From Akkermansia sp. (GTDB taxonomy: Bacteria; Verrucomicrobiota; Verrucomicrobiia; Verrucomicrobiales; Akkermansiaceae), in the NCBI GenBank assembly GCA_017521405.1, contig JAFXCP010000006.1:1-64000 (forward strand): a DNA stretch of 64,000 nucleotides, written 5' to 3'. Position 1 is the stretch's first letter. Each line of letters begins with the position of its first letter. This document shows positions 5,609 through 36,438 of this stretch, in pieces. Both the position numbers and the translations under genes were made by a program. The notes beneath the pieces are model-generated. The model was not told the origin of the DNA, ran no database searches, and saw only the letters and a program-made list of their open reading frames with translations.

Positions 5609-5613
5609 TAGAG

Positions 5614-5960: not shown

Positions 5961-6004
5961 GGTTTTTTTGCGGTTGGGGGTGTTTTTTTTGCGTGGGTGG
6001 TGTT

Positions 6005-6490: not shown

Positions 6491-6497
6491 GTTTGCT

Positions 6498-6526: not shown

Positions 6527-6550
6527 TCACTGTTAGGGTGTGTGGTGGGC

Positions 6551-6593
6551 AAAAATGAGGGAGACCACGCTGCGAGGTGCAGGGTGGTCTCCC
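6551..6593 (-). terminator. Terminator of the phosphohexomutase gene
   Basis: GGGAGACCAC (6559-6568) pairs with GTGGTCTCCC (6584-6593), with an inner CTGC/GCAG stem. TCATTTTTG follows on the minus strand. Confidence 0.8.
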
Positions 6594-6622
6594 ATGGGGT
6601 GTGGATGGTGTGTGGTTTGTTT

Positions 6623-8569: not shown

Positions 8570-8577
8570 ATGCGGGT

Positions 8578-8606
8578 ATTATACGCGCTCGGGGGGGACT
8601 TGGCAA
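8578..8606 (-). promoter_or_regulatory. Phosphohexomutase promoter (leaderless geometry)
   Basis: TTGCCA (8606-8601), 17 bp, consensus TATAAT (8583-8578), 8 nt, then ATGATG. The stop codon of the upstream gene (8610) lies just before the -35 box. Confidence 0.85.
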
Positions 8607-8609
8607 GTT

Positions 8610-9998: not shown

Positions 9999-11260
9999 GG
10001 TTGTTGTTCCTCCGTGTCTGTGGTTTGCAGCAGGAGGCGAAGGAGGGTTACCATGGGTGCTTGTTCTTTCAGTTCGTTGTAGTTTTCTGCGATGGTGGGT
10101 AGGGCTGCCGGGGTGGTAATGAGTTGGTTGTTTTCCACCATGTTTGCCATAATGGTGGCATGTTCCGGCATGTTGTGGGTGCGTAGGTATTCTGCTGCAC
10201 GGAGGAGCATGTCCGGGGTAAGGGCGGGGTGGTTGGCGTGGCGGAGGTGGTGGTCTGCCAGCAGTGCGTTGGCAAGGTCGTCCGTGGGTTGGGTGGGGAG
10301 TCCTTCCTGTTCCCATGGGAGGGGGGAGCCTTGCAGTTTTACTTGCTGGATGAGGGCGGCATGGACTACTCCGGGATCGAATACGGTGGCGTAGTGCCGG
10401 AGGTCGGGCAGAGCTGCTTTTCCTTCTGTTTGGACGAGCATTTCCATGAGGAGTCCCATGGGGGTGGCTGCGTTGCAGTCTATCATGTCATCCTTAGTGG
10501 TGGGGAGCATGGTGGCGAGTTTTTGGAGGGCGAGGCGGAGTTGCCCTGGGGCTACGTGCCAGCCCATGCCGTGCAGGGTGGAGAGGAGGTGTGCGGGGAT
10601 TTCTTCCAGGAAGTGTTCGCCGTGTTCCCAGAGGGGGAGTTGGTTGATGTAGTTTTCTGCTTCGGCGGGGTTGCCGAGGTGCATCATGTTAAGTGCTTCT
10701 CCCAGGGCACCGCGGGGGATGTTGCGGGTGCTTTCTGCGGAGAGGTAGCGCTGTACGAGGTCTGCGGCGCGGGTATAAGCGGGGGTGCAGTAGCGGCGGA
10801 TAAAGTAATCTCTGCTGCCGGGGGTGGTAGCGAGTTGGCTTTGGGCGTTGCGTGTGCGGATGTAGCGCAGGAGCGGGTTTTCTTCGTAGGGGATGCGGAT
10901 GACGAGTTCCGGGGGGAGGAGGTTTTCTGTTCGGAGGGATTCAAGGAGTTGGGGGGTGCCGGAGATGTAGAACATGGCATTGCAGCCGGCTTTATTTTCT
11001 GCCAGAGCATCTGCGCCGTTGGCGAGCATGCTTGTGATGAGGGGGTGCAGAAGGCGGTCGCGAGCTGTTTCCGGGGCAAGGGAGGCGGTGCGGCAGAGTT
11101 CCAGTAGGAGTGTGTCTCCATTGGCGGCGGGGGGCGGGTAGGGGAGGTTTTGCCACAGGCGCGGGATGTCGACAGCTGAGGACACGGGGGGCTCTGCTGC
11201 TGCTGCGGTTGCGGCGCAGAGGGGCATTATTGTGTACAGAGCTGGGTGGTACCACTTCAT
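9995..11260 (-). CDS. Exported ankyrin-like helical protein, unknown
   Basis: 421 aa starting MKWYHPALYTIMPL; the first ~23 residues form a signal peptide ending in an Ala-rich cleavage region. An ankyrin-like unit (LITSMLANGADALAENKAG) lies near residue 90, and the rest is mostly helical with short repeats. It resembles the neighbouring lipoprotein in style and may be a distant paralogue. It forms an operon with the membrane gene (4-nt overlap). Start chosen from the promoter 10 nt upstream. Confidence 0.65.
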   Translation of the reverse strand: MKWYHPALYTIMPLCAATAAAAEPPVSSAVDIPRLWQNLPYPPPAANGDTLLLELCRTASLAPETARDRLLHPLITSMLANGADALAENKAGCNAMFYISGTPQLLESLRTENLLPPELVIRIPYEENPLLRYIRTRNAQSQLATTPGSRDYFIRRYCTPAYTRAADLVQRYLSAESTRNIPRGALGEALNMMHLGNPAEAENYINQLPLWEHGEHFLEEIPAHLLSTLHGMGWHVAPGQLRLALQKLATMLPTTKDDMIDCNAATPMGLLMEMLVQTEGKAALPDLRHYATVFDPGVVHAALIQQVKLQGSPLPWEQEGLPTQPTDDLANALLADHHLRHANHPALTPDMLLRAAEYLRTHNMPEHATIMANMVENNQLITTPAALPTIAENYNELKEQAPMVTLLRLLLQTTDTEEQQP

Positions 11261-11270
11261 GCTGCATTCC

Positions 11271-11299
11271 AATCTAAAGGAAAAAGGCGTGTGTGTCAA
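11271..11299 (-). promoter_or_regulatory. Promoter of the ankyrin-like/membrane operon
   Basis: TTGACA (11299-11294), 17 bp, TAGATT (11276-11271), 10 nt to the ATG at 11260. Confidence 0.8.
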
Positions 11300-11307
11300 C
11301 CTGTAAT

Positions 11308-13137
11308 TTAGGGCTTGGGCGGGAGAAAAGCATCGCGGTGCTTGAGGATGAAGTGTGCGGTGGCAATTTCGAGTGTAAATTTCCAGTGGTGGCTATCGGC
11401 TGTGAGTTGGTCTAGCTCTTCGGGTTTATCCAATGCTGCGGCTATGGCGCGGTAACGGGTCGCAATTTCGGGGGCTCCGGCTTCTTCCATGGCGGCAAAC
11501 ATGGCATTTTGTTCATGTGTGGGCATTTCTCCGTACCATAGGTGGGAGAGGGAGGTGAGGAGGAGTGCTTTGCGGAGGGGGGGGGTATTTGCTGTGCGGT
11601 TGTGTTGTTGGAGCCAGGTTTCCACATCGCCATCCCGAGGGGTGGGTAGTCCTTGGCGGAGGAGTTCTGCGGCGAGGGCGCCGGCTTGGATGGGGGGGGC
11701 TGTGTGCCGGCAGAGTCGTTGGATGTTTTCTTTTGCTTGGGGGTGGCGTGCGAGGAGTTCGATGAGTGTGGCAGCTTCGTCCCATTGGCCGTTTTGGTGG
11801 AGTTTGAGGGCTATGGGTTCCAAAAGTTCCGGGGGGAGTACGATGCCGGGGCAGTGTTGCAAGGCTTCCAAAAGGGCGTTGCCGTGGCGTTCCTGCCAGA
11901 GTCGGGGGCTGGTCCACAGGGGCATGGCTGCTACTGCTGCGGAGGTTTTGGCGGCATCAATTTCGTGGAGTTGTTCTACGGCGAGGGGGAGTGCTTCTGC
12001 ATACAGCGGGTGGTGTAGCATTTCCTCTGTGGGGGAGAGGATGGTTGCTATGGCTGTGAAGTTTTCGGGTGCGGGGTGGCGGTGCAGCATGCCGGCTTTG
12101 CATACGGCGATGATGAGGGGGATGCCTTCTGTGTAGTGGATGGGGGGAGGGGTGAGTTCCAGTCCGTTTTGGCGGAGGATTTGGCGACTGGTCGGGTCTT
12201 TGGTTAGGATGTCCGCGGCGCAGAAGGCGGGGGAGTTTTCTATTCGTGTTTCGGAGAGGTGGGGGTCTGCTCCATGGCGGAGGAGGAGGATGCACATGGA
12301 CATGACGCGGCTGTGGTGTTGCTCTGCGTTATCCTCCGCCGGGGAGAGGAGGTGCAGGCATGTTTCCAGCAGGGCTGTTGTGCCGTGGGCTGTGCGGGCG
12401 TTGGGGTCTGCTCCGGCGGCTAGGAGTTGCTGCACGGTTTCTTCGTGGAGGTTTGCAGCAGCTTGCACCAGCATGGTGTTGCGTGTGTCCGGGTTGTTTC
12501 CTTGTGGGGTGGGAAGCATGCGGCGGAGGGCTGTGTTCCAGCCCATGGCTGCGGGGATAATGCAGGTGGTGGCGTCCGTGGGGCAGTTTGCATCCAGCAG
12601 GTGGAGGAAGAGTTCTTCGCTGTGGGAGTTCAGGCCGGCGTGGTTGATGAGTAGTTCGTTCCGGCCGATGGGTGTATGTAGTTTGGCTCCGTTTTGGCGG
12701 AGTGTTTCGACGAGGGCTATTTGTTGTTTGCCGGTGGTGTTTTCCGGCTCTGCTCCGCGCAGGGAGACGGCTAGTCCCAGTGGGGTGTCTCCGGCGGCGG
12801 TGGTGGCGTTGGGGTCTGCGCCATCCAGGAGGAGGCAGCGGGCGAGTTCATTTTGTTTGAATAGGCAGGCAAGGTGCAGCATGGTGATGCCGCTGGGTGT
12901 GCTTTTGAGGGTGGCATCCGGGGTGCGGGTGAATGCTTGCAGTAGGTGTTCGATTTCTTCCGGGGCGCCGGTTTCCAGAAGTTCTTCTACGCCCATTTCC
13001 GGTAGTGCTTGCATGATGGCTGCCAGTTCCTCTGCTGCTTGGGGGGTGGCGTGGCCTTGGGGGGTGCCATCTCCGCAGGAGAGTAGTGCGGTGGCCAGGA
13101 GTATTCCCAGCAAGTAGGGGCGGCATGCTTTTCTCAT
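11308..13137 (-). CDS. Ankyrin-repeat lipoprotein
   Basis: 609 aa. The N terminus MRKACRPYLLGILLATALLSC is a lipoprotein signal with lipobox LLSC. Ankyrin units are clear: GITMLHLACLFKQNELARCL followed by LLDGADPN, then EETVQQLLAAGADPNARTAHGTTAL and ILLLRHGADPH. The C-terminal ~250 residues are helical repeats without a recognised family. Ankyrin proteins bind other proteins, so an envelope scaffold role is plausible, but the partner is unknown. The start at 13137 is preferred over an ATG 9 nt upstream because the latter overlaps the -10 box. Confidence 0.75.
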   Translation of the reverse strand: MRKACRPYLLGILLATALLSCGDGTPQGHATPQAAEELAAIMQALPEMGVEELLETGAPEEIEHLLQAFTRTPDATLKSTPSGITMLHLACLFKQNELARCLLLDGADPNATTAAGDTPLGLAVSLRGAEPENTTGKQQIALVETLRQNGAKLHTPIGRNELLINHAGLNSHSEELFLHLLDANCPTDATTCIIPAAMGWNTALRRMLPTPQGNNPDTRNTMLVQAAANLHEETVQQLLAAGADPNARTAHGTTALLETCLHLLSPAEDNAEQHHSRVMSMCILLLRHGADPHLSETRIENSPAFCAADILTKDPTSRQILRQNGLELTPPPIHYTEGIPLIIAVCKAGMLHRHPAPENFTAIATILSPTEEMLHHPLYAEALPLAVEQLHEIDAAKTSAAVAAMPLWTSPRLWQERHGNALLEALQHCPGIVLPPELLEPIALKLHQNGQWDEAATLIELLARHPQAKENIQRLCRHTAPPIQAGALAAELLRQGLPTPRDGDVETWLQQHNRTANTPPLRKALLLTSLSHLWYGEMPTHEQNAMFAAMEEAGAPEIATRYRAIAAALDKPEELDQLTADSHHWKFTLEIATAHFILKHRDAFLPPKP

Positions 13138-13144
13138 GCCTTGC

Positions 13145-13173
13145 ATTGTATATGGCTGCGGGGTGGGCAGCAA
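13145..13173 (-). promoter_or_regulatory. Promoter of ankyrin lipoprotein
   Basis: TTGCTG (13173-13168), 17 bp, TACAAT (13150-13145), 7 nt to ATG 13137. The -10 overlaps the upstream in-frame ATG, excluding it as start. Confidence 0.7.
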
Positions 13174-13189
13174 GCCCGGAGTGCGTCAC

Positions 13190-14599
13190 TCAGCAGTTGA
13201 CGGTGGAGTTAAGGCGTGCTATGTGGATTTCTCCGTTGTGCTGTGTTTGCAGGGCTTTTTTCATGGCTTGGGAGCATTCCTTTTCCCCGTGTACGAGGTA
13301 TACTTTTGTTTTAGAGCCACCGGTGGCGTTGAAATAGCGGAGGAGTTCGTTGTGGTCTGCATGGCCGGAGAAGGAGTCCAGTGCTTTGATGCGGGCTCTT
13401 ACGGGGTACACATCCCCCAGGATGCGGACTTCCAGAGCGCCGTTCATGATGCGGCGCCCAAGTGTGTTTTCGGCGCAGTAGCCCACAAAGAGTACGGTGT
13501 TATTCGGGCGGCCGATGCCGTTTTTGAGGTGGTGGAGGATGCGGCCGGCCTCGCACATGCCGGAGGCGGAGATGATGATGGCACTTTCCCGGAGGTTGTT
13601 GAGTTTTTGGGATTCGGAGATGGTGCGTACCATGTGGAGTTGTTCGAAGGAGAAGGGGTCTCGTTCTTCGAAGAGGAAGTGGTATACTTCTTTGTTGAAG
13701 CATTCCGGGTGGATGCGGAAAATTTCCGTGGCACTTACGGCCATGGGGCTGTCTACATATACTTGGTAGTTGGGGAGGGTTCCCTTTTTATAGGCTCGGT
13801 TGAGGATGTATAGGAGTTGCTGGGTGCGTTCTACGGCGAAGGAGGGGATGTAGACGTTGCCGCCGCGTTTCATGGCTTCGCGGATGGTGCGGCAGAAGGT
13901 TTCATCGTCCCGGCTGGGGGATTCGTGGTGGCGTCCGCCATAGGTGCATTCCATGAGCATGATGTCTACATCCGGCACGGGGACGGGGTCTTGCAGAAGT
14001 TCGTTGTTTCCTCTGCCTATATCTCCGGAGAAGAGGAGGCGTTTATGTTTGCCGCCATCGTCCTCATCTTCAATATCGAGTACAATTTGGGCGGCGCCGA
14101 GGATGTGACCGGCATCGTAGAAGGTGAGGGTGATGCCGGGGGCTATGGGGAAGGGGATTTCATAGCCGATGTTAATGAAGCGGCGGAGGCACAGTTCTGC
14201 ATCTTGTTCGGTGTAGATGATTTGAGCCACATTGCCGTTACCTCCTTTGCGGAGGCTCATTTTGTTGAGGAATTTGCAGTCGCTTTCTTGGATGCGTGCG
14301 GAGTCTGCCAGCATGATTTGGCAGAGGTCTCGGGTGGCATGGGTGGCATAGATGAAGCCTTTGAAGCCTTTTTTGACGAGGTTGGGAAGGTTTCCCGAGT
14401 GGTCGATATGGGCGTGGGAGAGGATGACGCAATCCACGCCGGCGGGGTCGAAGTAGGGGAAGTCTCGGTTGATGCGGAGTTGGTCTTCCCGGTGACCTTG
14501 GTACATGCCGCAGTCCAAGAGGATTTTTTTGCCGTTGATTTCCAGCAGGTGCTGGGAGCCTGTAGTTGTTTCAGCTGCGCCGCAGAAGTGAATTTTCAT
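13190..14599 (-). CDS. Beta-CASP metallo-beta-lactamase RNA-processing-type protein
   Basis: 469 aa. The metallo-beta-lactamase motif SHAHIDHSGNLP (61-72) binds two zinc ions; later motifs include SGDIGR, the beta-CASP ISASGMCEAGR and the closing SGHADH histidines. This pattern and length fit the YsxA/CPSF-like beta-CASP ribonuclease group, which act as RNA endo- or exonucleases in the cytoplasm. Substrate not predictable. The ATG at 14599 (second codon after an in-frame GTG) lies 8 nt from the -10 box. Confidence 0.88.
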   Translation of the reverse strand: MKIHFCGAAETTTGSQHLLEINGKKILLDCGMYQGHREDQLRINRDFPYFDPAGVDCVILSHAHIDHSGNLPNLVKKGFKGFIYATHATRDLCQIMLADSARIQESDCKFLNKMSLRKGGNGNVAQIIYTEQDAELCLRRFINIGYEIPFPIAPGITLTFYDAGHILGAAQIVLDIEDEDDGGKHKRLLFSGDIGRGNNELLQDPVPVPDVDIMLMECTYGGRHHESPSRDDETFCRTIREAMKRGGNVYIPSFAVERTQQLLYILNRAYKKGTLPNYQVYVDSPMAVSATEIFRIHPECFNKEVYHFLFEERDPFSFEQLHMVRTISESQKLNNLRESAIIISASGMCEAGRILHHLKNGIGRPNNTVLFVGYCAENTLGRRIMNGALEVRILGDVYPVRARIKALDSFSGHADHNELLRYFNATGGSKTKVYLVHGEKECSQAMKKALQTQHNGEIHIARLNSTVNC

Positions 14600-14607
14600 C
14601 ACTCTCT

Positions 14608-14636
14608 AATCTAACGGAGTATTAGGATATTTGCAA
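14608..14636 (-). promoter_or_regulatory. Promoter of beta-CASP gene
   Basis: TTGCAA (14636-14631), 17 bp, TAGATT (14613-14608), 8 nt to ATG. The -35 abuts the FKBP gene's terminator. Confidence 0.75.
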
Positions 14637-14678
14637 GTAAAAAGCCCGCGTAACAGGAGATTTTTCCTGTTACGCGGG
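14637..14678 (-). terminator. Terminator of the FKBP gene
   Basis: Arms 14645-14658 and 14665-14678 (CCCGCGTAACAGGA and complement) are a perfect 14-bp stem, followed on the minus strand by CTTTTTAC. Confidence 0.85.
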
Positions 14679-14719
14679 AGGGGGAATAAAGGAAGGTGTG
14701 TTCTCTCCGGTGTATGCTT

Positions 14720-15574
14720 TTACTCGGGTGTGTTTTGCAGACCTTGCTGCTGGAGCTGTTGGAGCATTTCCGGGGTGAGCTGCATGGGCATGCCGGTGGG
14801 TGCCGGGGCTTTCTTGATGTCCTTGAGGCTGATGGTGAAAATCAGCGTGGAGTTGTTACCAATGGGACCGGGGCCTTGGGGACCATAGGCAAGTTCAGAG
14901 GGGATGCAGACTTCCCAAGTGGAACCGATGGGCATGAGTTTGAGGGCTTCGGAGAATCCGGGGACTACGCGGTCAATCTGCATGTCGATGGGGGAATCGC
15001 ATTTATCGAACACGGTGCCATCGATGAGCTTGCCTTCGTAGGTGATGGAGCAAAGGGCGTTTTCTCCGTCTTGAGCCGGATCATATTTACGGCCTTCGGC
15101 TGGGGTTACAATGCGGTAGAGTAGGCCGGATTCCGTTTTGGTGACACCTTCTTGCTTGCTGAAGTTTTCTTGGAAGGCTTTACCTTTGGTAAGATTTTCC
15201 TCTGCTTTAATTTTTTCGCGTTCTTGGAGGGTGGTGACGAAGGCGTTCATGCCTGCCTCAATTTCCGGTGTGGAAAGAGCCGGGGCTTTGTTGGAGAGGC
15301 TATCGTCCAATGCTTGGAAGAAGGTATCCTTGTCAAAATCAGCAATGCTGAGGGTGGTGGCACCTGCGGAGGCTTGTTGTCCAAAGCTGTAACCGATGTA
15401 GTAGGAAAAAATCTTCTTGGCTTGTTCCGGGGTAACGGTCGGTGCGGCAGTGGGCTCGGTAGGAGCCTCTGCGGTGGCCGGTGCGGTATCGCCCTGTCCC
15501 TGGGAGAAACAATAAGTGGTGGTGCCGCCGATGAGGGCAAGCCCTGCCAGAATCATCAAGTATGTTTTTTTCAT
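14720..15574 (-). CDS. Exported FKBP-type peptidyl-prolyl isomerase
   Basis: 284 aa from MKKTYLMILAGLALIGG, an N-terminal signal sequence. A Pro/Ala/Thr-rich linker is followed by an FkpA-like dimerisation domain (about 45-130) and a C-terminal FKBP domain. FKBP marks include VTKTESGLLYRIV, ITYEGKLIDGTVFD and IPSELAYGPQGPGP. The family isomerises Xaa-Pro bonds and chaperones secreted proteins in the periplasm. The tail after the FKBP domain is Gln/Leu-rich. Upstream in-frame codons lie inside the promoter and are excluded. Confidence 0.9.
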   Translation of the reverse strand: MKKTYLMILAGLALIGGTTTYCFSQGQGDTAPATAEAPTEPTAAPTVTPEQAKKIFSYYIGYSFGQQASAGATTLSIADFDKDTFFQALDDSLSNKAPALSTPEIEAGMNAFVTTLQEREKIKAEENLTKGKAFQENFSKQEGVTKTESGLLYRIVTPAEGRKYDPAQDGENALCSITYEGKLIDGTVFDKCDSPIDMQIDRVVPGFSEALKLMPIGSTWEVCIPSELAYGPQGPGPIGNNSTLIFTISLKDIKKAPAPTGMPMQLTPEMLQQLQQQGLQNTPE

Positions 15575-26420: not shown

Positions 26421-26452
26421 GGGGAAAGCGCAGGCTTTCCCCCCTTTTTTTT
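26421..26452 (+). terminator. Terminator of galM transcript
   Basis: GGGGAAAGC (26421-26429) / GCTTTCCCC (26434-26442), followed by eight T (26445-26452). Confidence 0.85.
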
Positions 26453-26494
26453 GATGCCCCGAGGCGGGCAATAAGTGCGCCCTAGTTGAGTGTA

Positions 26495-26522
26495 TTGATT
26501 TTTTTACGAAATGCGCCATGCT
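26495..26522 (+). promoter_or_regulatory. Putative promoter of the terminase operon
   Basis: TTGATT (26495-26500), 16 bp, CATGCT (26517-26522), 6 nt to ATG 26529. This matches the host-type near-leaderless geometry, although the -10 is weak. Confidence 0.4.
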
Positions 26523-26528
26523 GGGGAC

Positions 26529-27749
26529 ATGGCGATACGAATGAAAGAATGGGGCATGCTGTCCTATCCCCGGCAGAGTGTTCATCTCCCAACGCAGGGG
26601 ATTAGCGGCTGGGCAGATGCCGGGCTATCCTTGGGGCGCGGTATAGAGTCTGTGGGGTCTGCAATAGCAGGAACTTTGGCAGACCAAGTGAAGGTAACGG
26701 GGGATATGGCAGCCTTTGCGGCGCGCTTGGAGGAAATAGGAAAAGAAACGGCGGAGGAATTAGCACAGCAGTCTGTAAATGATTGGGCGTATGCTTGGAA
26801 TGCTGCATGTGCTCCCCGTTTGAAGGAGGCCGTGGAGGAATTGCCTGCTCATTCCCGCGCTGCGGGTAGGCAATTCGCCGCCGATGCGAATATGCGCATG
26901 CTTTTGGAATCCCAGCGGCAGCACGAATTGGAAAAAGTGCAGAATGCACGCCGGCAGTGGCGCCTGCGAATGGAAGATGCGGTACAACGGGGGGATGAGC
27001 AGGAGGCGACCCATTGGTTGGAGCAGGGGCGCGGTGTGTTTGTGCCGGAAAGTGATGTGCCGCAGGAGCAGGTGCGCTTGCAGAGTAATTCTTCCTTAAT
27101 GCGCTGGCAGCACAAGCTGCAGGCAGAGCCTTTGAAGGCTTTGGCTGATTTCCGACAGGAGGAGCCGGAATTGCCTTCTCTGGAGGAGGATGTGCGGACT
27201 TTGCAGCAAAACATGGAGCTTGCACACCGGCAGGCTTTGCTTTCGTGTTCCCGGCGTGTGGCTGCGGATATTTTGAGTGGCAAAACGCCTCAGGATTCTT
27301 GGTTGCAGGAGGTGGAGCAGGCCGGAATCATTAGCGGAGAAATGCGAAAGCGTGCAGCTATGTCTCCGCAATCTGCCGGCATGGAGCAACTGTGTTTCTG
27401 GACTCGCCGGGTGGATGAAGCTGCTACTCCGGAAGAGAGCGCTCGCATTCGTATGGAGGTGGCTCTGGCACCGGTGCCGCTTCCTGAGCGTCAAAAGCTG
27501 CTTCGGCGCATGGAAGTGTTGGAAACAACCCCAAGCGAAGCTCAACGCAATCTTAGCCGTCGCTTATGGCAGCTATACAGTGGCGGCGGAATGGGCTGCC
27601 CGGGGGATTCCATGGCTTTGCAGCGTTTGAGCCGCCTCCAAGAGGAATCTCTGGCTTTGGTGCAGGAGGGAGATGCCCGAAAACTGGATTCCTGGATGCA
27701 ACAGAACGTGCGAGCCCTTCCGTTGCAATGGATTTGCCTTAGTGCCTAA
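26529..27749 (+). CDS. Helical protein, candidate phage internal/ejection protein
   Basis: 406 aa, almost entirely helical and rich in Glu, Gln, Arg and Ala with coiled-coil stretches (for example ESQRQHELEKVQNARRQWR). A Gly/Ala-rich N-terminal segment (WADAGLSLGRGIESVGSAIA) could be amphipathic. No catalytic motif or family is recognised. Position, immediately before a 1789-aa protein and a large terminase, resembles internal virion protein genes of T7-like podophages, but that rests on context only. Start 26529 preferred from promoter geometry. Confidence 0.55.
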   Translation: MAIRMKEWGMLSYPRQSVHLPTQGISGWADAGLSLGRGIESVGSAIAGTLADQVKVTGDMAAFAARLEEIGKETAEELAQQSVNDWAYAWNAACAPRLKEAVEELPAHSRAAGRQFAADANMRMLLESQRQHELEKVQNARRQWRLRMEDAVQRGDEQEATHWLEQGRGVFVPESDVPQEQVRLQSNSSLMRWQHKLQAEPLKALADFRQEEPELPSLEEDVRTLQQNMELAHRQALLSCSRRVAADILSGKTPQDSWLQEVEQAGIISGEMRKRAAMSPQSAGMEQLCFWTRRVDEAATPEESARIRMEVALAPVPLPERQKLLRRMEVLETTPSEAQRNLSRRLWQLYSGGGMGCPGDSMALQRLSRLQEESLALVQEGDARKLDSWMQQNVRALPLQWICLSA

Positions 27750-27753
27750 TGCA

Positions 27754-30700
27754 ATGCTTTTTACTATGCCCACTACTCTAAATATGAATACTACACCCGT
27801 ATTGGAACAGCTTGTGCAGGAGCCGGAGCCGGCCCCCACAACGCCGATGTTGAATGATTGGACGAATTCCGTAGTGCAGGAGCCGCAGGTTTCTCCGTCA
27901 ATGCCTATTGAGGAAAAGGCGGAAACTCCACCCCTTATCGTTGAGGAGCAGAAAAGGGATGAGTATTGGAGCAATCTGCTTACCGGCTCTCCGGATACAA
28001 TTCCGGATGAGATTCGTATAAAAGCGTTGCCAAATGGGGAGAATGCTCCTTCTGTTTCGGAGGAAGAGAGTAATTATGAACTTTTGGGAAATATCAACCG
28101 TTCTTGGATGGTGGATTATTCTCCTTATTCTCGCGCGGATGTGCAGAATAACTGGCCCAGTATGCGGGCAGAACTGGCTCGGGAAATGGGCGTGGATAGC
28201 GATGAGCATGAGGTTTTTGTGGCACTGTCCGAAAAAACTCGTACGGATGAGATTCGGCGGGTGGCACAAAAGCTGTATGAGGATTCATACAAGGCCGCTT
28301 TGCTGGGCGATGCCATGCCGATATTGCCGGAAGAGGAAGATGAGGAAATGGCTGCGGCTTGGAGTGCCGTGGCGGAGCAGGCTCAAAATAAGGCGCGGGA
28401 GGAGCGGGAGGAGTATTTACCTTTGGCTATGCGTGTGTTTGTGGCCTGGGAGGTACTCCGGGCGGCAGAGGTGGAAATGAACTCCTTGCCTTACGTTGTG
28501 CGATATTCACCGGAATTTTTCTCTGCTCTGGAGGAACTTGCCGATATGCCGGAAGAAAAGCGGAATCGCGTTTATAATCTGGCGCAGGTTTTGGCAAAGG
28601 AAGCCGGGGTTGAAACAAAACCTGTGGGTACGGCAGAGGCTATGGGGCGCTCTCTTCTCCGTGGGGCTGATGCTTTGCGCCATAATTTGATTCAAGGCGT
28701 CGGGTATACAGCTGCCGCTGCGGTGGATTCGTTCGGGGCTACTTGGAATTTGAAATCAGTACGCCATGCTGCATCGAAGGTAGATTCCTGGCTCCGAATG
28801 CTTCGAGAGTTGCGGGAGGTGGCACAGGGAAAGGTATACCCTATTACTCTAAAGGAGGAGGAGTCCGGGCTTGCTTCGCAGTTAGCCGTGGACGCTGCCT
28901 CCGGCACACCTATGGCTCTTTTGCCCTTTTGCGGACGTGCCGGGTTTGGCATTATGGCTTCTGCGGCTGTTGGTGATATTGCGGCGGAGGCTCGCAAGCG
29001 GATGCCGGAGGGAGAAATGACGCTGCAAGTGATGTCTGCCATGGCGGGAGCTTCTCTTCAGAGTGCTATTTACTCTTGCATGGGAGATGTGGGTCGCAAA
29101 GTGGTTGGGAATACAATTTCTTCCTTTGCAAAAGCCAAAGGGATGGGGCTCAAGGGCTACTCATTGGCGGCTCTTCAATCCGGGGCTCGTTTTTTGGAGG
29201 CAAATGCTAAGATGCTGCTCGCCGGTAAGGCCTCTCAGGGGATTTCACTTGGTTCTCAGGAGTTTGCGGCATGGAGTGAAGGTCTGGATTCCCACATCGA
29301 TTGGAAGTTATACGGGGATAATCTTCTGGATATTGAGACGAATATGCGGGAGGCTGCCATGAATTTGCCCTATATACTCATTGCTTCCGGGCGTGCCGCC
29401 TTGCATCATTTTCGTTCCCCGGATGCTCTGGTGTCAGATTCTGCTGCATTGGAATCTTGGGGGGTAAGTTCGTCTGTTCGTAAGCGCATTAGCGAGGAGC
29501 CGAATATACAGCGGCAGAATGAGATGCTGCGGAAGGTTCTTTGTGGTTCTAAGCGCTGGGGCGGTATGGGCTTTTTCCCGGAAATTATGCGGGCCATGAA
29601 CCTGCTGAATACAAAGGATTTCCAAGGATTCAAGGATGAGGCTATCGTGCGGGAATTCTTACAGCTTCCTGCACAATTACCCAACCGCTTAAACGAAATG
29701 AAAATACGGGAGCTTCTCACGCCGGAGCTTCAGCAGGAGGCCTTGGCCCGCCTTGCTCCCGCAAAGCTGGGTAAAAGTCTTTCTTCGCGTGCGTTGGAGA
29801 GCTTGCAGATGATGGATTTGTGGTACCGAAAGGCAGATGTGTGGAAACAGCAGATAAAAACGCCTCATGCCGCTCGTTATCGTTTCCTCTCGGAAATTAA
29901 CCGGCAGGGCAGCCTTGTGCCCAAACGATTGAAATTCGATGGTTTTTATCGACCTCATGTGGAAAAGGAACGCCAGCAATACTTGGCTAATAAAATGGAT
30001 GAGCTGAATTCCCTTTCCTATAATTTTCTTCTGCTGACTCATTCAATGGATGGTTTGGCGCATTCTTTCAAGAACCGAGATTTAGCGGAGAAGCATACGG
30101 AGCATATACGAAAGCGTTTGCTGAGCCATGTGTTCCACGCAATTATGCAGGAGGAATGCGGCATCCCGGCAGAGGAGGCTTTTCGCCCTTTTAATGATTA
30201 CATTTATCAGGTGATTCGGGAACGCAGAAAGAGCTTCAATGCTCCGGCTTGGTTATCGCGGAATCGTAAGGTGGGAAGTCAGTGGTTCAAACAGGCTCAC
30301 ACGATGCCTATGGAGCGTTTGGAAGAAAAACATTTTTCGAATCAGCATAGTTATGTGACGTGGCTTAAGCAAAAATCCTGGAAACACTATATGGATAAAA
30401 AACCTTATATTGTGATGGAGGCGCCGAATCGTGATATTAATCAGGGCGAAACATTGGAATGCTTCCGCATCATTACCGGTATGCATGCTAAAGCTGAGTA
30501 TATACGAGAGATTTTGCCGTATATGGAGGATTACCAAACGGCTTTGACTCGCGGGATGTCTCCTTTGCAAGCCATGTCTTATATGATTGAACGTGAGTGT
30601 GGGGAGTACCTCATTCCCGAGATTTGGAAACCTGAATCTTTGGCGGAAAATCCCACAGCTACTGCCGATATGGAGAACTTTACGGCAAGGAATAAGGATT

Positions 30701-33123
30701 TGTATCATCAATACCATGCTTTTACCGGGCGTTCTCTCGAAAGTACGCAATTGGAGGGCGGCCAAAAACTTTGGCGCATCCAACGACCGGATGGCAAATA
30801 TACTCGCTGGCATAGTGCCCCGGAAGAAGCTATTAACGATATGGTGGCTAATTCGCTCAATTCTTTCCGCAGCCTATGGCTGGCAGATAAAAAAATGCGC
30901 GCTCAGGAGAATCTTAAGCCTTTAGGCTTGGAGGGGAAACCGGAGGAAGAATCATTGGTGGAGTATACCACCGCCCATGATCTTCTTGGTGGAACTGCCG
31001 CGCGCGAATTAACCCGGTTTTGGCTGGAAGATGCAACCCGTACGCCGGCTGGACTGGATTATACGCTTGTACCCAAGGGGTATAATTGGAAATTTCTCTC
31101 ATCCGGTAGAGGGGAGAAAAAAGGGGAGGATGTAAAGGCTTTTTGGTATTCTGCCCGTGCGACTCCTTATACCATGATGCGGAACCATTTTGCCGGTTTT
31201 TGGAAGATGGCTTTGCAGGAAAATAGGGTGGATGCAGAGAAGTTGATGGAATTTTTGCATAAGCGTGGTGTTATCCGGCCTCAGGGTCTGCAGAGCATGG
31301 AGGTGCTTGCACATGGGCGGAAACGCTATTTGAAGAATTTTGCCGGGCCAGTGCGTCGCTGGTTTCTTAGGGAGGGTATTAGCCCGGATATTCAGCCGGA
31401 TATACCTATGCTCCAGCATCGCCTTTCCCAATACATGGCGGATTATTCAATGCGTTATTTCCTGAGTAATTTAAATAATCTTCCTATGCCAGATTCTGTA
31501 AGGGAGTGGTTTTCTCTGATTCCGTTATGCCCGGAGGACGCTCCTGCCGATAGAGGCTATCGTAAGGCGAATCGATTTATTACCCTCGGCACGCGAGCAA
31601 ATGGCTATTCGGTAAAGAGGCTACGGAGGTTGATAGGTTTAGTACCGGAGTACAAGGAAAGGTATATGGCAGAGGATGAGCAGTCCTTCATTGGGGAGCT
31701 GTTGAAAGAATCTGTGGGTAATTCCACTACGCAGAGATTGGAGCAGGGGTGGTGCTTTGCTCTTTCCGGCAGTGGCTCGATGCGAGCAAGAGACCACGCT
31801 ATTTGGGACGTTCTGCGAGACCCTGCAAAAAATTGGAATTCCCTTTTGCCGGAAGCACAGCAGGAATTGCGGACGTCTCTGGAAGCGGATTTATCCCGTT
31901 TCTGTGCGCCCGGAGAGGCCATGAGCCCTTCTCTGGAAAAGGCATTATCCAATTTGCAATCTGTTCTGGTAGAACACCCGGAGTTGCGTAACTATATGCT
32001 GGAACCCGGCCCGGTGGAGAAGCTGTTCCGCATGCAGCTGAATGAGCCGGAATTACAAGGGCTCTTCCCAGCACCTAAAACTCGTGCCGAGTTATTTTAT
32101 GATAGCCCGGTGCGATTGATGAGAAATGGCTTTGAGCTTTTCCCGGAGGAGTCATTGCCTGAGACCATGGAAGGTGATGCACGTGTGAAACCTGCTTTGC
32201 GGTTTTTGTCCCGTATGCGCCACCAGTTCACCAGCGTGCCTTATGCTGATGAGTTTGGCATTTGGTGGCAAGGAAAGCGTTATGGAGGAACTCATGGGGA
32301 GCGCCCTCCCGGCCTTGGACCTGAGTGGACACCTCAACCTCTGTTGTTGAATTTCCGGAATTATTTGGAACGTCTGGAGCAGGAGGCGCGGAGCGAAAAC
32401 CCGGAGGGGGTGCTGGAGGTTTGCGGAGTTAAGCTGCGTGGCTTAACTTCGGAGATGCTGGATAGCGCTCTACTGGAAAAAGGTACGCTGTATACGAACC
32501 GCAAAATGCCTAACTATCTGCTTCGCTTGATGCCGGGTGAGGCCTATGCTGCTAACCCTTATCTAAGAGCTCCTTATGTGGTGCATTCTTCCAATGGTGC
32601 ATTGTTACTGCCGCAGACTATCTTACGTAAGCTGGAGGAGCGCCATTTGGCTTTCCAACCCTTACGTTCTTTCGATAGCTTATTGAAGCGCGATTATCTG
32701 GATAAAAGTACATTGCGTATAGGTAGGGAGCATATTCTGGATTTGCTGGATGACGTTGTGTATCGCAGAGCGTCTTCCAGAGCCAATTTGGATGCTTCGA
32801 AGAATGCGGAGTTGAGTAATGTGGAAATCATTATGCAGTTGGCTCAGGATAGTCGATTATCCGATTATGTAGCGCAAATAAATCCCAGAGAGATGACGCG
32901 AGGCGAAGCTTTGGCTGTGAGTTTGCTGCGTAATATGGTGGAATATGAATTTGGCCGGGATAAGCGCCGTGCCGCTAAAGAGTTGGTCGAGCTGTGCAGA
33001 AAGTTGCGTCGAAGTGAGAATGATATGAGCTTGCTGCGTCGTACACTGCTTCGGCTTCGTTCTTACCAGCCGCCCGCAGAGGAGGATTCTGCTCCTCCCA
33101 GTCGCACCTCAACTGAAGAATAA
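27754..33123 (+). CDS. Giant 1789-aa phage-like protein
   Basis: The start lies 4 nt after the preceding stop; MPTTLN 12 nt on is an alternative. An acidic, Pro-rich N terminus (~130 residues) is followed by long helical regions. A hydrophobic Gly/Ala-rich zone near residues 350-480 (AVDAASGTPMALLPFCGRAG, VMSAMAGASLQSAIYSCMGD) could insert in membranes. The rest is Arg/Glu/Leu-rich with no known enzyme motif. Size, composition and neighbour order fit either a gp16-like ejected internal virion protein or a large polyvalent protein of the kind found beside phage terminases. It ends PPAEEDSAPPSRTSTEE. The single long intact frame argues that it is maintained. Confidence 0.6.
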   Translation: MLFTMPTTLNMNTTPVLEQLVQEPEPAPTTPMLNDWTNSVVQEPQVSPSMPIEEKAETPPLIVEEQKRDEYWSNLLTGSPDTIPDEIRIKALPNGENAPSVSEEESNYELLGNINRSWMVDYSPYSRADVQNNWPSMRAELAREMGVDSDEHEVFVALSEKTRTDEIRRVAQKLYEDSYKAALLGDAMPILPEEEDEEMAAAWSAVAEQAQNKAREEREEYLPLAMRVFVAWEVLRAAEVEMNSLPYVVRYSPEFFSALEELADMPEEKRNRVYNLAQVLAKEAGVETKPVGTAEAMGRSLLRGADALRHNLIQGVGYTAAAAVDSFGATWNLKSVRHAASKVDSWLRMLRELREVAQGKVYPITLKEEESGLASQLAVDAASGTPMALLPFCGRAGFGIMASAAVGDIAAEARKRMPEGEMTLQVMSAMAGASLQSAIYSCMGDVGRKVVGNTISSFAKAKGMGLKGYSLAALQSGARFLEANAKMLLAGKASQGISLGSQEFAAWSEGLDSHIDWKLYGDNLLDIETNMREAAMNLPYILIASGRAALHHFRSPDALVSDSAALESWGVSSSVRKRISEEPNIQRQNEMLRKVLCGSKRWGGMGFFPEIMRAMNLLNTKDFQGFKDEAIVREFLQLPAQLPNRLNEMKIRELLTPELQQEALARLAPAKLGKSLSSRALESLQMMDLWYRKADVWKQQIKTPHAARYRFLSEINRQGSLVPKRLKFDGFYRPHVEKERQQYLANKMDELNSLSYNFLLLTHSMDGLAHSFKNRDLAEKHTEHIRKRLLSHVFHAIMQEECGIPAEEAFRPFNDYIYQVIRERRKSFNAPAWLSRNRKVGSQWFKQAHTMPMERLEEKHFSNQHSYVTWLKQKSWKHYMDKKPYIVMEAPNRDINQGETLECFRIITGMHAKAEYIREILPYMEDYQTALTRGMSPLQAMSYMIERECGEYLIPEIWKPESLAENPTATADMENFTARNKDLYHQYHAFTGRSLESTQLEGGQKLWRIQRPDGKYTRWHSAPEEAINDMVANSLNSFRSLWLADKKMRAQENLKPLGLEGKPEEESLVEYTTAHDLLGGTAARELTRFWLEDATRTPAGLDYTLVPKGYNWKFLSSGRGEKKGEDVKAFWYSARATPYTMMRNHFAGFWKMALQENRVDAEKLMEFLHKRGVIRPQGLQSMEVLAHGRKRYLKNFAGPVRRWFLREGISPDIQPDIPMLQHRLSQYMADYSMRYFLSNLNNLPMPDSVREWFSLIPLCPEDAPADRGYRKANRFITLGTRANGYSVKRLRRLIGLVPEYKERYMAEDEQSFIGELLKESVGNSTTQRLEQGWCFALSGSGSMRARDHAIWDVLRDPAKNWNSLLPEAQQELRTSLEADLSRFCAPGEAMSPSLEKALSNLQSVLVEHPELRNYMLEPGPVEKLFRMQLNEPELQGLFPAPKTRAELFYDSPVRLMRNGFELFPEESLPETMEGDARVKPALRFLSRMRHQFTSVPYADEFGIWWQGKRYGGTHGERPPGLGPEWTPQPLLLNFRNYLERLEQEARSENPEGVLEVCGVKLRGLTSEMLDSALLEKGTLYTNRKMPNYLLRLMPGEAYAANPYLRAPYVVHSSNGALLLPQTILRKLEERHLAFQPLRSFDSLLKRDYLDKSTLRIGREHILDLLDDVVYRRASSRANLDASKNAELSNVEIIMQLAQDSRLSDYVAQINPREMTRGEALAVSLLRNMVEYEFGRDKRRAAKELVELCRKLRRSENDMSLLRRTLLRLRSYQPPAEEDSAPPSRTSTEE

Positions 33124-33128
33124 GTACC

Positions 33129-34739
33129 ATGCAGAGTATCATTAAGCAAATACCGGAATTGAAAGGTCGTTTGGATGACCCTCTTTGGAGGATGCAGCAT
33201 TTGTATTGGATTGAGAACAAGGCCGGGCATATGCAGCGTTTTAGTCCCAATGCGGCTCAACTTCGCTTGCACAGGAATCTTTGGAATCGTAATGCTGTGT
33301 TGAAGGCTCGCCAGTTAGGCATATCCACATATGTGGCTATACTGATGCTGGATAGCTGCCTTTTTACTCCGAATTTTCACGCTGGTATTATTGATAAAAC
33401 GCTGCCGGATGCCGAGCAAAAATTGGAAAAAGTGCGGTTTGCTTGGATGCACTTGGATTATCTTCCCCCGAATGCTTCGGGGGAAGACCAATCCCTAGCG
33501 GCTTTAGGTACGCTTATTAAACAGCGTAGCGGCTTGCTCCGTAGGAATGAGTGGCACCCCGTATCGGATGCGAGGACGCGGGTGGCCTTTTCCAATGGAA
33601 GCGATATTCGCCTTGGTACAACACTGCGTGGCGGTACATTGCAGCTGTTGCATGTATCGGAGTTAGCGCATGTATCAGTTCATGCTCCGTGGAGAGCTAG
33701 GGAGATTCGTACGGGAGCTATCAACACCGTTCCCGTGGATGGAAAAATCATTCTGGAAAGTACGCACGAGGGTGGGCGCTATGGCGTGAATTATGAGATG
33801 ACTTGCCAAGCAATGGAAAATCGCAGTAAGCAGGAACTTTCCCCTCTGGATTTTCGGTTTTTCTTCTTTAGCTGGTTTGATAATCCGGATTATACGCTTC
33901 CGGGTACATCCGGTTGGAGCGATACAAGTGCTGCTTACTTCGAGCATTTGGAGCAGGAAAGTGGTGTGCAGCTTTCGCATGGGCAAAAATTATGGTATTC
34001 TCGTATGGAGCGGACGATGGGTGCCGCCATGCGGCAGGAGTACCCCTCTACGCCGGAAGAAGCCTTTTCCACAGGAAATGATGGCGCAATATATGGCGCT
34101 CAAATGGCTATTCTTCGAGAGCAGGGGCGCATTGGAGCTTCTTTTGAGTATCAGAAGAATGAACCTCTCTACACAGCCTGGGATTTGGGCTTGAGTGATC
34201 ATACTTCCATTTGGCTTGTGCAACACTGCGGTGGCCAGGTGTATTGGTTGAACCACTATGCTGCCAATCAACTTCCTCTGGAGCATTTTGCCGGGAAAAT
34301 CCGGGAATGGGAAAGTCGTTATGGCCGGATTGCTGCACATTTCCTACCGCACGATGCAGCCCACCGGGACCCTCATGGGCAATCGTATGTGGAGAGCTTG
34401 GCTCGCGAAGGAATTTTTGCCGTTCGAGTTGTTCCCCGCACGCCGGATGTATGGCGCGGGATTAACAGCTTGCGTGGGTTGCTGAGCCGTAGTTGGTTCC
34501 ACAGGGATACTCTTTTGCAGCGTGTGAATCCGCAGGGTGAGAAGGAGCCCTCCGGGGTGACTTGCTTGGAAATGTACAGGACTGCGCCGCCCGGTGCATC
34601 GGGCCTTTGCCGTGAAGCTCCTTTGCACGATGCTTCCTCCCACAGCGCGGATGCTGCCCGCATGTTTGCAGAGGCTTTATCCCATGGCCTGGTGGCTCCG
34701 GTGCAATTGAGAGTGCCGCCTCGGCGGGCGCTTATGTGA
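33129..34739 (+). CDS. terL: Phage terminase large subunit
   Basis: 536 aa. The ATPase half has the terminase Walker A variant KARQLGIST (59-67), Walker B LLHVSELAH with E178, and coupling motif ILESTHEGG (208-216). The RNase H-like nuclease half shows YTAWDLGLSDHTS (D352), HFLPHDAAHRD (D409) and HSADAARM near the C terminus, so all acidic metal ligands appear intact. TerL cuts concatemers and pumps DNA into procapsids. No small terminase, portal or capsid gene is seen nearby. It starts 5 nt after the giant-protein gene. Confidence 0.88.
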   Translation: MQSIIKQIPELKGRLDDPLWRMQHLYWIENKAGHMQRFSPNAAQLRLHRNLWNRNAVLKARQLGISTYVAILMLDSCLFTPNFHAGIIDKTLPDAEQKLEKVRFAWMHLDYLPPNASGEDQSLAALGTLIKQRSGLLRRNEWHPVSDARTRVAFSNGSDIRLGTTLRGGTLQLLHVSELAHVSVHAPWRAREIRTGAINTVPVDGKIILESTHEGGRYGVNYEMTCQAMENRSKQELSPLDFRFFFFSWFDNPDYTLPGTSGWSDTSAAYFEHLEQESGVQLSHGQKLWYSRMERTMGAAMRQEYPSTPEEAFSTGNDGAIYGAQMAILREQGRIGASFEYQKNEPLYTAWDLGLSDHTSIWLVQHCGGQVYWLNHYAANQLPLEHFAGKIREWESRYGRIAAHFLPHDAAHRDPHGQSYVESLAREGIFAVRVVPRTPDVWRGINSLRGLLSRSWFHRDTLLQRVNPQGEKEPSGVTCLEMYRTAPPGASGLCREAPLHDASSHSADAARMFAEALSHGLVAPVQLRVPPRRALM

Positions 34740-34781
34740 AATGTTTCTCCATCCTTAAATAAATAAACAATACAATATAAT

Positions 34782-35312
34782 ATGCAAACACTAAAAACCA
34801 GATACGGTAGGCGGTATATCGTCTATACAAAAGAAGATTGCACAGTGTGCGAGGAGAATGGACCTGTGCTTTGCCGGGTGGCAGCCGGAGATACGGCGGA
34901 ATTCATCGGGTTCGGTATACCTGTGCAGGTTTCCAGCGATACTGCAGAGGTGCGCGATGCGTTTTCCTTATCTCGGGATTCTGTGGCAGGTGGTGGAGTG
35001 GCGGATATGCCGGTTCGACCCTTGCCGGAGAAGTTCCTGCGTGCCAATGTGGTATATGATATGGGGGCTCTTACGGAAAATACGGATTTGTCCCAGCTTT
35101 CTTTTGAGCCTGCCAATTCCGTGCGCTCCTGCGAAGTTTGGTTTAGTACGGTGGAATCCGTGCCCAGTATTATTTGGCCTTCCGGAATTTGGGTGGATTC
35201 GGCAGATGGAAACGCGCCGGATTTTGAATCGAATTCTCATTACAGACTGGTATTGCGTCAGGAGGGTGTGGGTAATCTTGTTATTTCCGTAGCATATGTC
35301 TATTCCGTGTAA
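34782..35312 (+). CDS. Phage-type small structural protein, unknown
   Basis: 176 aa, beta-rich. MQTLKTRYGRRYIVYTKEDC precedes a domain with VPSIIWPSGIWVDSADGNAP and ends LVISVAYVYSV. Such short N-terminal modules joined to beta domains are common in phage tail-tip or decoration proteins, but I recognise no family. The 42-nt gap after terL contains TACAATATAAT directly before the ATG and may hold a weak internal promoter. Confidence 0.5.
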   Translation: MQTLKTRYGRRYIVYTKEDCTVCEENGPVLCRVAAGDTAEFIGFGIPVQVSSDTAEVRDAFSLSRDSVAGGGVADMPVRPLPEKFLRANVVYDMGALTENTDLSQLSFEPANSVRSCEVWFSTVESVPSIIWPSGIWVDSADGNAPDFESNSHYRLVLRQEGVGNLVISVAYVYSV

Positions 35313-35313
35313 G

Positions 35314-35937
35314 ATGAACCCGCTGGGCGGAAAAAACGAGCTTCCTCCGGGCTATACTCGTTTAGAGTATTTGGAAAGCTTGCCTGATGGGAAACAGTAT
35401 ATTAATCTGGATTATATTCCGGATGGGGAGACTGGGTTATACTGCCGCCATTTGCATTTGGAAAAAAGTTTGAACAATGTTTTCGCCATAGGCGTTAGCC
35501 AAACTTCCACTTCTCCGCCTACCGGTATGATATGTGTTCCAACTATGGGTTACGCTGCTGTGTTCTATGCTTGGGGAGGGCCTTGTTCCGCAGGTCGTCC
35601 TTTGGGGCCTCCCTCAATCTACCCTGCGGAAGGATGGCTGAATTACTACGGTAGCAGGCAGGCTGTGTTGCGATGTAACGGCGCTGAGTGGGCTACATCG
35701 CTAAGCTCTTTTGACTACGAGGTTACGCGTCCTTTGTATATGGGAATGATTAACCGCTGTGGTGTGAATGCATTTGCATTTTATGCGCGATTTTACGAGG
35801 TCCGTATTACTCAGGGGAAGAAGCTGGTGTGCCATTGTGTGCCTGCTTTGGATGCTGATGGGACTCCGTGTATGTACGATGTTATCAGAAAGCGTGCTCT
35901 TTATAATTCCGGCTCCGGTCAATATGTATTGATATGA
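35314..35937 (+). CDS. LamG-like/fibre-type protein
   Basis: 207 aa, starting 1 nt after the previous stop. LPPGYTRLEYLESLPDGKQY followed by INLDYIP is the entry of a concanavalin/LamG-like fold seen in phage tail fibres and Akkermansia surface proteins. The closing FYEVRITQGKKLVCHCVPAL fits the last strands of this fold. A carbohydrate-contact or fibre role is likely. It overlaps the next start as ATGA. Confidence 0.6.
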   Translation: MNPLGGKNELPPGYTRLEYLESLPDGKQYINLDYIPDGETGLYCRHLHLEKSLNNVFAIGVSQTSTSPPTGMICVPTMGYAAVFYAWGGPCSAGRPLGPPSIYPAEGWLNYYGSRQAVLRCNGAEWATSLSSFDYEVTRPLYMGMINRCGVNAFAFYARFYEVRITQGKKLVCHCVPALDADGTPCMYDVIRKRALYNSGSGQYVLI

Positions 35938-36155
35938 ATGCCATTTATGCAAGAATAACGGAATCCGGGGTGCGTTATTGCCTGCGTATTCCGCATGTGA
36001 GTAACGCTTCCGCGAGCCTTTTGGCAGAATATGCAAGTTCTCTCGGTTATAAACGAATGCTGGAATCTCCATGCCCGCAGGAGGGGGATTGGCAGGCTGT
36101 TTATAAGGAGGAGGAAGATTTCATCCGGCAAATATGGGTGAGAGTAGAACAATGA
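35934..36155 (+). CDS. 73-aa protein, unknown
   Basis: Coupled by ATGA overlaps on both sides. Mixed alpha/beta (MNAIYARITESGVRYCLRIP, LLAEYASSLGYKRMLESP). No family recognised; retained as a gene because of its tight coupling in the operon. Confidence 0.6.
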   Translation: MNAIYARITESGVRYCLRIPHVSNASASLLAEYASSLGYKRMLESPCPQEGDWQAVYKEEEDFIRQIWVRVEQ

Positions 36156-36394
36156 ATACACAAGAAGAAAAAGCAGGTTGGCTGGTAAGTCTGTTGACTG
36201 GCTGGGGCATTCGGGAGAGTTGGGCAAAAATCATCGCCGGAGCCGTTATCGGGGCTCTCTGTGCGGCCGGTGCGTTTTGCACTGCCTCTTGCGAAGGCTT
36301 GAGGGAGATGTCCCCGGAGCAGTTGCAGGTGTTACATTACTCGTACCACCGGCTTACCGGGCAGGCTTGCCCCATTGTGGAGGCTCGGAAATAA
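36152..36394 (+). CDS. Small membrane protein, holin-like
   Basis: 80 aa from the ATG overlapping the previous stop. One strong hydrophobic helix, WAKIIAGAVIGALCAAGAFC (about 27-46), follows an amphipathic N terminus, and the C-terminal half is soluble. The size, single helix and position at the end of a phage-like operon suggest a class II-like holin, by analogy with T7 gp17.5. A terminator follows at once. Confidence 0.5.
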   Translation: MNTQEEKAGWLVSLLTGWGIRESWAKIIAGAVIGALCAAGAFCTASCEGLREMSPEQLQVLHYSYHRLTGQACPIVEARK

Positions 36395-36408
36395 TCCGAG
36401 GAAGCACC

Positions 36409-36438
36409 CCCCGGGAGCTATGCTCCCGGGGATTTTTT
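36409..36438 (+). terminator. Terminator of the terminase operon
   Basis: CCCCGGGAGC (36409-36418) / GCTCCCGGGG (36422-36431), loop TAT, followed by ATTTTTT. It also marks the convergent end of mfd. Confidence 0.88.

Follow-up and report, generated by a model that had tools for sequence, protein, structure and literature searches.

In Akkermansia, most components of a short-tailed phage particle seem to have been inherited and kept as individual genes dispersed along the chromosome, with matching switches in some species; a built-in machine for gene transfer could look like this. The window, the whole stretch of 64,000 nucleotides analysed here (positions 1 to 64,000 of contig JAFXCP010000006.1, assembly GCA_017521405.1, Akkermansia sp.), carries a block of seven genes built around a phage large terminase gene, terL, which we call A, B, terL, D, E, F and G. 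This block probably belongs to a set of four or more chromosomal loci (five in relatives that have gp14) which jointly specify a domesticated T7-like virion, a gene transfer agent (GTA). The proposed set comprises A-B-TerL, a divergent tail-tube A (TTA)/portal-scaffold locus, the capsid, tail-tube B (TTB) and, in relatives, gp14. With less assurance, we lean towards a wider reading, a genus-wide podophage-derived GTA, A. muciniphila included, whose parts are kept as host loci united by an activator and a co-changing promoter site, and which would move chromosomal DNA among mucus-dwelling kin. A gene-transfer-like packager was among the options that an earlier note on the window had listed, and it is now the favoured one.

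The window's own genome (G000; the others carry handles G001-G076, and most are drafts) comprises 38 contigs totalling 1.99 Mb, is 99.7% complete and belongs to the same genus as G005, G045 and G047. A Pfam search of this genome found one T7-type portal, on contig C7 (PF12236, E 7.7e-125; control genomes 0/14), which also matched the PDB portal 8ck0 at E 7e-39. The portal gene is adjoined by a divergent tail-tube A gene (phrog_394, E 3e-38), by p131 and p93, and by a scaffold-like gene of phrog_3742, a function-unknown family that also matches a prophage protein lying between portal and capsid. A 48-bp tandem repeat of about seven copies stands directly 3' of the scaffold-like gene (L073:3200-3534, contig C7 of G000). 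Capsid and TTB were sought with profiles built from prophage capsid and tail-tube B proteins; the capsid gene lies on C22 (PF19821, E 1.8e-77) and TTB on C31, about 27 kb past the window end (phrog_376, E 4e-128). A PDB search with the capsid gave chance-level matches only.

Directly 5' of the capsid start there is a leader, about 105-140 nt long, with the conserved blocks GGCAAGAGC ... GACCCCG..CGGGTAATC ... GCCGATTTGCC in 11 genomes. The own-genome copy is at L092:8313-8440 (-), with homologous stretches in 10 other genomes (alignment A6). No Rfam family matched this leader above threshold, and a possible closing helix in it showed no compensatory pairs.

Across the genus, the portal is present at 60% identity or more in 59/77 genomes, while the capsid and TTB each match in 63/77 and a two-sequence gp14 profile in 59/77, the last three counts including prophage copies. 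Among the loci available, the portal was found in 21/21 genomes, tail-tube A in 19/21, the scaffold-like gene in 20/21, and the capsid and TTB in 20/20 each. The earlier note had seen no portal, capsid or tail tube and had pictured the block as cut loose from the rest of a T7-like podophage. The absence is true within the window, but the genes lie elsewhere in the same genome, and at those other sites conservation extends to the portal, scaffold-like and capsid genes and to the two tail-tube genes; the podophage ancestry that it proposed is supported.

The terminase itself falls into two classes. An orthologue of the window TerL, at 60-100% identity, occurs in 58/77 genus genomes, with a contig-edge fragment in G043 besides, and a second class, 39-52% identical to the window TerL, contributes 22 copies in 17 genomes; the identity cut-offs were set post hoc, on seeing the gap between 60% and 52%. 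All 11 second-class loci inspected are of prophage type, and the same block inside a full prophage, the counterevidence named in the earlier note, was not found. A, B and TerL are present in 22/22 genomes inspected, and their order on one strand is kept in all 20 further loci fetched. The conserved operon unit is therefore A-B-TerL and not the complete seven-gene operon first proposed. The suggestion that many strains would keep exactly seven genes between galM and mfd failed as well, galM standing upstream of the block in 2/20 other loci within the flanks fetched. Domestication is thus supported by a pattern other than seven-gene synteny, namely the trio together with its dispersed partner loci.

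TerL appears intact, as was first thought: terminase profiles match it, the motif KARQLGIST, which we take to be Walker A-like, is invariant in 22/22 genomes, and the acidic motifs, presumably nuclease-type, are kept in 22/22. When named genome contigs were scanned with the G005 TerL, five loci came up at 90-99% identity, three in Akkermansia muciniphila, one in Akkermansia sp. and one in an Akkermansiaceae bacterium. Among 50,697 phage records, 370 match TerL, all below 60% identity, and the best-ranked among the matches listed reaches 36.5%. In the 14 genomes G063-G076, neither TerL nor portal was found at 60% or more, and gp14 had no match; G065 does contain a TerL-like fragment of 33 residues at 58%. 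G046 (98% complete) and G002 are likewise without a TerL or portal orthologue. In 261 family genomes, the portal never exceeds 39% in other genera.

The loci lie far apart. In five of six single-contig genomes, the closest two of the genes for TerL, capsid, TTB, portal and gp14 are separated by 106-132 kb; in the sixth, G058, the smallest separation is 82 kb, except that gp14 is 1.9 kb from terL, and the largest distance among the scattered loci of the six is 1.6 Mb. In G039, TTB directly follows TerL. A prophage of G033, by comparison, holds small terminase, TTB, TerL, portal, scaffold-like, capsid, TTA and gp14 genes all within about 15 kb, whereas the scattered set does not have its virion genes contiguous in one excisable unit, as a prophage does. 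Podophage heads hold about 40 kb. Given the 82 kb-1.6 Mb between the loci, a single particle would probably be too small for the set; selection would then act on the host, as in a GTA. Temperate podophages with PF12236 portals do occur in Akkermansia (L061/L062 of G033:C32 and similar ones among L051-L070), related to the scattered set and clearly separate from it. In G058, a second TTB-like and a second gp14-like match stand side by side at C1:20280-23448, far from the scattered set.

Descent has been mainly with the host. Trees and correlations were built on 20 genomes, G028 and G040 of the 22 being excluded because a capsid, TTB or portal locus was not available; the mfd of G005 splits into two pieces, and the longer was used. 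Pairwise identity follows that of host mfd closely, with r of 0.949 for TerL, 0.971 for portal, 0.970 for capsid, 0.958 for TTB, 0.915 for A and 0.874 for B. Median pairwise identities of TerL (0.65), portal (0.63) and capsid (0.65) are like those of host mfd (0.59) and alaS (0.68), and the medians for A, B and TTB are 0.25, 0.24 and 0.36. Out of 17 splits, TerL has 12 in common with the mfd and alaS tree, portal 12, capsid 9 and TTB 13; label shuffling (n=1000) never gave more than five.

Purifying selection is evident from the ratio of nonsynonymous to synonymous substitution rates (dN/dS). Over seven close pairs, this ratio was 0.036-0.165 for TerL, 0.033-0.095 for portal, 0.028-0.158 for capsid, 0.092-0.217 for A and 0.125-0.312 for B, with 0.098-0.174 for TTB (six pairs) and 0.028-0.140 for the host genes mfd and alaS. 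For the pair G021-G042, dS is saturated and the TTB value unusable, and the scaffold is missing for one pair. These values, well below 1, uphold the earlier suggestion of selection rather than decay. With trees that follow the host, low dN/dS and conserved TerL motifs, the evidence tells strongly against neutral decay, and no recent horizontal spread has to be invoked.

A promoter element is shared among the loci in three genomes. Shared elements were first noticed on reading the upstream regions of A, capsid, TTB and the portal operon, which were then compared with 300 control sets drawn at random from upstream regions at other loci of that genome. The exact 9-mer GGGCAATAA is present in all four regions in G000, and the exact 9-mer TGAAACGCG in all four in G034, while G031 has a 10-mer common to three of the four; controls reached this in 0/300 in each case. 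A three-region 9-mer in G045 was equalled by 2/300 controls. Candidate forms of the element as an activator site are GGGCAATAA and TGAAACGCGGTACCG. At all five G000 promoters, tail-tube A included, GGGCAATAA stands exactly 20 nt before a -35-like hexamer (TTGATT, GTGACA, TTGCCT, TAGATT, TTGCAG), and at four G034 promoters the element stands 21 nt before one (TTGACC, GTGACA, TTGCAT, TGGATT). In G031, the gp14 promoter, which was not used in deriving the element, has TCGCCGCGA 14 nt before TTGCAG, and at the same 14-nt distance are TTGCAT (tail-tube A), CTTGCA (portal operon), TGTCTT (TTB) and CTGTAC (capsid).

Genome scans were then informative in different degrees. Scanning G000 for its element at the fixed spacing returned 10 matches, of which five are the known promoters; the reversed pattern returned two. 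At the match C22:73654 (L220), the following ATG is too close to accommodate a -10, and degenerate frames that include an RHS-like fragment lie further on; L217, L218 and L221 sit within host genes, and these, with L220 and the unassigned L224, were treated as chance. A 15-mer allowed up to two mismatches gave 19 matches in G034 and none for the reversed control. Seven sites were exact, two of them apparently one place at overlapping contig ends; three are known promoters, and TTB has one mismatch. A new exact site precedes a 174-aa protein of gp14 type (phrog_418, internal virion protein, E 2.8e-7), a gene that was found because the element scan alone pointed to it. Other exact sites precede the gene of a 1932-aa RHS-repeat protein (L244:532-6330; PF05593, E 4e-16) and a gene truncated where contigs end.

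This element is highly lineage-specific, since the exact G034 15-mer stands 5' of gp14 in 1/21 genomes with a locatable gp14 start (30 loci looked at), namely G034 itself. Only visual inspection pointed to variants near gp14 in G021, G039, G040, G042 and G028. In an initial search for a 16-mer motif with 40 control sets, G034 scored 45 against a control maximum of 40, and G031 scored 42 against 40; G000, which has a shorter shared core, stayed below its control maximum at 37 against 38, and the other 17 genomes did not exceed theirs. The differences between lineages are as would be expected if an activator and its sites changed together.

From these features, the following mechanism can be proposed. 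A host-encoded activator would turn on the loci through the shared site at a fixed distance 5' of sigma-70-like promoters. Capsid, scaffold and portal would assemble, and TerL would pump chromosomal DNA, presumably at random, into the heads. A, B and gp14 would build the ejection apparatus and TTA and TTB the short tail, a holin-type protein would aid release, and the particles would carry chromosomal DNA to kin.

Several observations weigh against this account. The gp14 profile has no match in G000. A small terminase, an endolysin and a regulator were not identified among the scattered genes, none of the three having been the target of a genome-wide search. A and B diverge fast and match no profile. 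Nothing comparable to the shared element emerged from the remaining 17 of the 20 genomes tested, among them the A. muciniphila group; the upstream regions of G034 tail-tube A and G031 A have no exact match to it, and not all hexamers at the fixed distance make good -35 boxes. Moreover, where virions of A. muciniphila YL44 were induced with mitomycin, two prophages are reported in the available part of the source (PMC8008629).

Within the window, the block consists of seven same-strand open reading frames, each uninterrupted in a check of the window, as had been described. With the starts used here, the intergenic gaps are 4, 5 and 42 nt and the overlaps 17, 4 and 22 nt; the 42-nt upper end of the earlier spacing stands, and the overlaps run slightly wider than its 4 nt. 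The features, in order, are the following.

26421..26442, + strand: terminator-like hairpin and T run, after galM
26466..26474, + strand: GGGCAATAA element, exactly 20 nt 5' of the -35-like hexamer
26495..26500, + strand: TTGATT, -35-like hexamer of the A promoter
26529..27749, + strand: gene A, helical protein of 406 aa, without profile match
27754..33123, + strand: gene B, giant protein of 1789 aa, without profile match
33129..34739, + strand: terL, large terminase, matched by PF17289 and several terminase PHROGs
34782..35312, + strand: gene D, weakly resembling fibre-type proteins after terL in Akkermansia prophages (best E 7e-5)
35296..35937, + strand: gene E, related to a 367-aa protein after terL in the G033 prophage (E 1e-17)
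35934..36155, + strand: gene F, 73 aa; its 201-aa relative in the G053 prophage has terL on one side and portal on the other (E 8e-7)
36134..36394, + strand: gene G, 86 aa, holin-like by reading, best prophage-protein E 4e-9
36409..36431, + strand: terminator-like hairpin of 10 pairs, end of block

The hairpins proposed as framing terminators are thus present at both ends, but as a class such hairpins are no commoner than in shuffles (14 found, shuffle mean 12.5). The A start codon at 26529 is 28 nt past the TTGATT hexamer, which may make the transcript almost leaderless. When A, B, D, E and F were scanned against Pfam and PHROG, no usable match appeared up to E 1, and a PDB profile search with A gave a single match at E 0.12. 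From its position, order, size and conservation, A is a probable ejection or internal virion protein, and B, from size and order, a probable T7 gp16-like internal or ejection protein. In the stretches inspected in other genomes, D, E and F have no orthologue, and G has one only in G034 and some relatives; G homologues lie 3' of terL in G034, G036, G041 and G032, with weaker ones at prophage loci. As D-G resemble, some of them weakly, Akkermansia prophage proteins that mostly follow terL, they are best read as a putative lineage-specific receptor-binding and release module. Elsewhere in the window, at 5000-15000, GC skew reaches 0.4 and AT skew -0.3 over about 9 kb, in a region of long minus-strand genes followed by two tRNA-Gly genes.

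The main rival, which we regard as unlikely, is a PBSX-like killing particle, in which DNA-filled short-tailed particles would kill non-kin rather than transfer genes. PBSX packages random 13-kb chromosomal DNA and yet acts as a bacteriocin (PMC7667829, available part), the G034 promoter element also stands 5' of the RHS-repeat protein gene, and the fibre-like D-F, not found in the other stretches inspected, may vary. The RHS link, however, comes from one genome only, and the PBSX genes form a single cluster. Simple killing would not require a TerL that is conserved and looks catalytically intact, though PBSX also packages DNA. Virion parts exapted for a role without DNA, as a protein shell, vesicle or secretion device, would suit the fast divergence of A and B (median identity about 0.25) and the small terminase not having been identified, a gene at which no genome-wide search was aimed. 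This explanation is quite improbable given the TerL motifs kept in 22/22 genomes and a TerL conserved like mfd.

An ancestral prophage that rearrangements had split up, and whose remains were slowly decaying, would account for the fragmented locations and for the four downstream genes not being found at most other loci. This reading is disfavoured, and has very little probability in our estimate: component dN/dS is about 0.03-0.3 (up to seven pairs), the frames are open, TerL and portal are retained in 58-59/77 genomes, and the promoter element is common to loci in three genomes.

Viral records bear on whether a phage, satellite or split prophage is still spreading. Part of the scattered set is catalogued as virus in IMG/VR: four records (L297-L300) hold the tail-tube A/portal locus at 97-100% portal identity, in all four at the record end, and in the two whose genes were read this locus is joined to unrelated prophage-like sequence, which is consistent with automatic boundary calls and looks like the product of automatic prophage boundary calling. 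A pattern search of the IMG/VR viral contigs for close relatives, with two query proteins, found no TerL orthologue. A search of these contigs with the capsid gave at least 80 matches, at 32-40% identity among the matches listed. A live phage, satellite or split prophage spreading horizontally is therefore very improbable, the related prophages of the genus and the four IMG/VR records speaking for it and the record-end position of the locus, the lack of a TerL orthologue in that pattern search and the host-following trees against it; a satellite or a recent deletion remnant was dropped on trees and dN/dS.

A domesticated, host-maintained particle thus remains our preferred reading, and it can be set against the definition of GTAs, which, in the accessible part of PMC9662315, lists six features. 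The first, the building of tailed particles from caudoviricete-derived proteins, is seen here for protein ancestry, in the profile matches of terminase, portal, capsid, TTA, TTB and gp14, significant similarity being accepted by the definition. The set is fully endogenized at multiple loci, as GTAs often are, and in 20 genomes its inheritance is mostly vertical, in co-diversification with the host. A further feature, a genome that cannot be fully packaged, is plausible here, the distances of 82 kb-1.6 Mb between loci exceeding the head capacity given above for podophages. The other two features are that mostly random host DNA is encapsidated and that it is delivered to other cells, both of which the scattered set is predicted to do. 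With three of the six features seen, by genes alone, the scattered set would work like a GTA, and the statement that it is one would be premature.

GTAs are known in few lineages, and the open-licence PMC literature, among the matches listed, holds no report of one in Verrucomicrobiota or Akkermansia, nor of a scattered system. Among mouse-gut virus-like particles, Verrucomicrobia show 3.5-fold contig abundance among contigs with transduction patterns (PMC7667829, in part). We infer that Akkermansia may be a source of this signal; the genus is unnamed in the accessible part of that report, and prophage induction could explain the signal. If active, the system would offer a route by which genes move between cells of a much-studied gut bacterium, explain why prophage catalogues miss or misread the scattered set, and offer a clean case of a virion made from dispersed small loci whose unity is visible only in co-inheritance and shared promoters. 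Two questions become testable in a culturable commensal: whether a particle arises from dispersed phage genes, and what host benefit keeps them.

The closest relatives are the temperate podophages of Akkermansia itself (G033:C32, L061/L062), which have homologous TTB, TerL, portal, scaffold-like, capsid, TTA and gp14 genes. In these, the genes and a small terminase are within the 15 kb described above, and the second-class TerLs are set apart from the window's by their low identity. PBSX of Bacillus subtilis (PMC7667829, as far as available) is likewise a domesticated particle packaging chromosomal DNA, as the Akkermansia particle would be, but it is a single cluster and kills rather than transfers. 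FpGTA of Faecalibacterium, in the available part of PMC12946183, is similar in its gut commensal host and in having a separate second operon; FpGTA I is a 10.5-kb operon of ten open reading frames, with packaged DNA of 8.4-8.9 kb observed. By contrast, the Akkermansia core genes, in Verrucomicrobiota and known from genes alone, are single or grouped in small operons, spread over at least four distant sites. The structural genes of RcGTA form mainly one head-tail cluster of siphovirus type. RcGTA and its relatives (Rhodogtaviriformidae; PMC9662315, in part) share with the Akkermansia set a phage derivation, vertical inheritance and more than one locus, whereas the Akkermansia set is of podovirus type and has its terminase, portal, capsid and tail-tube B genes apart.

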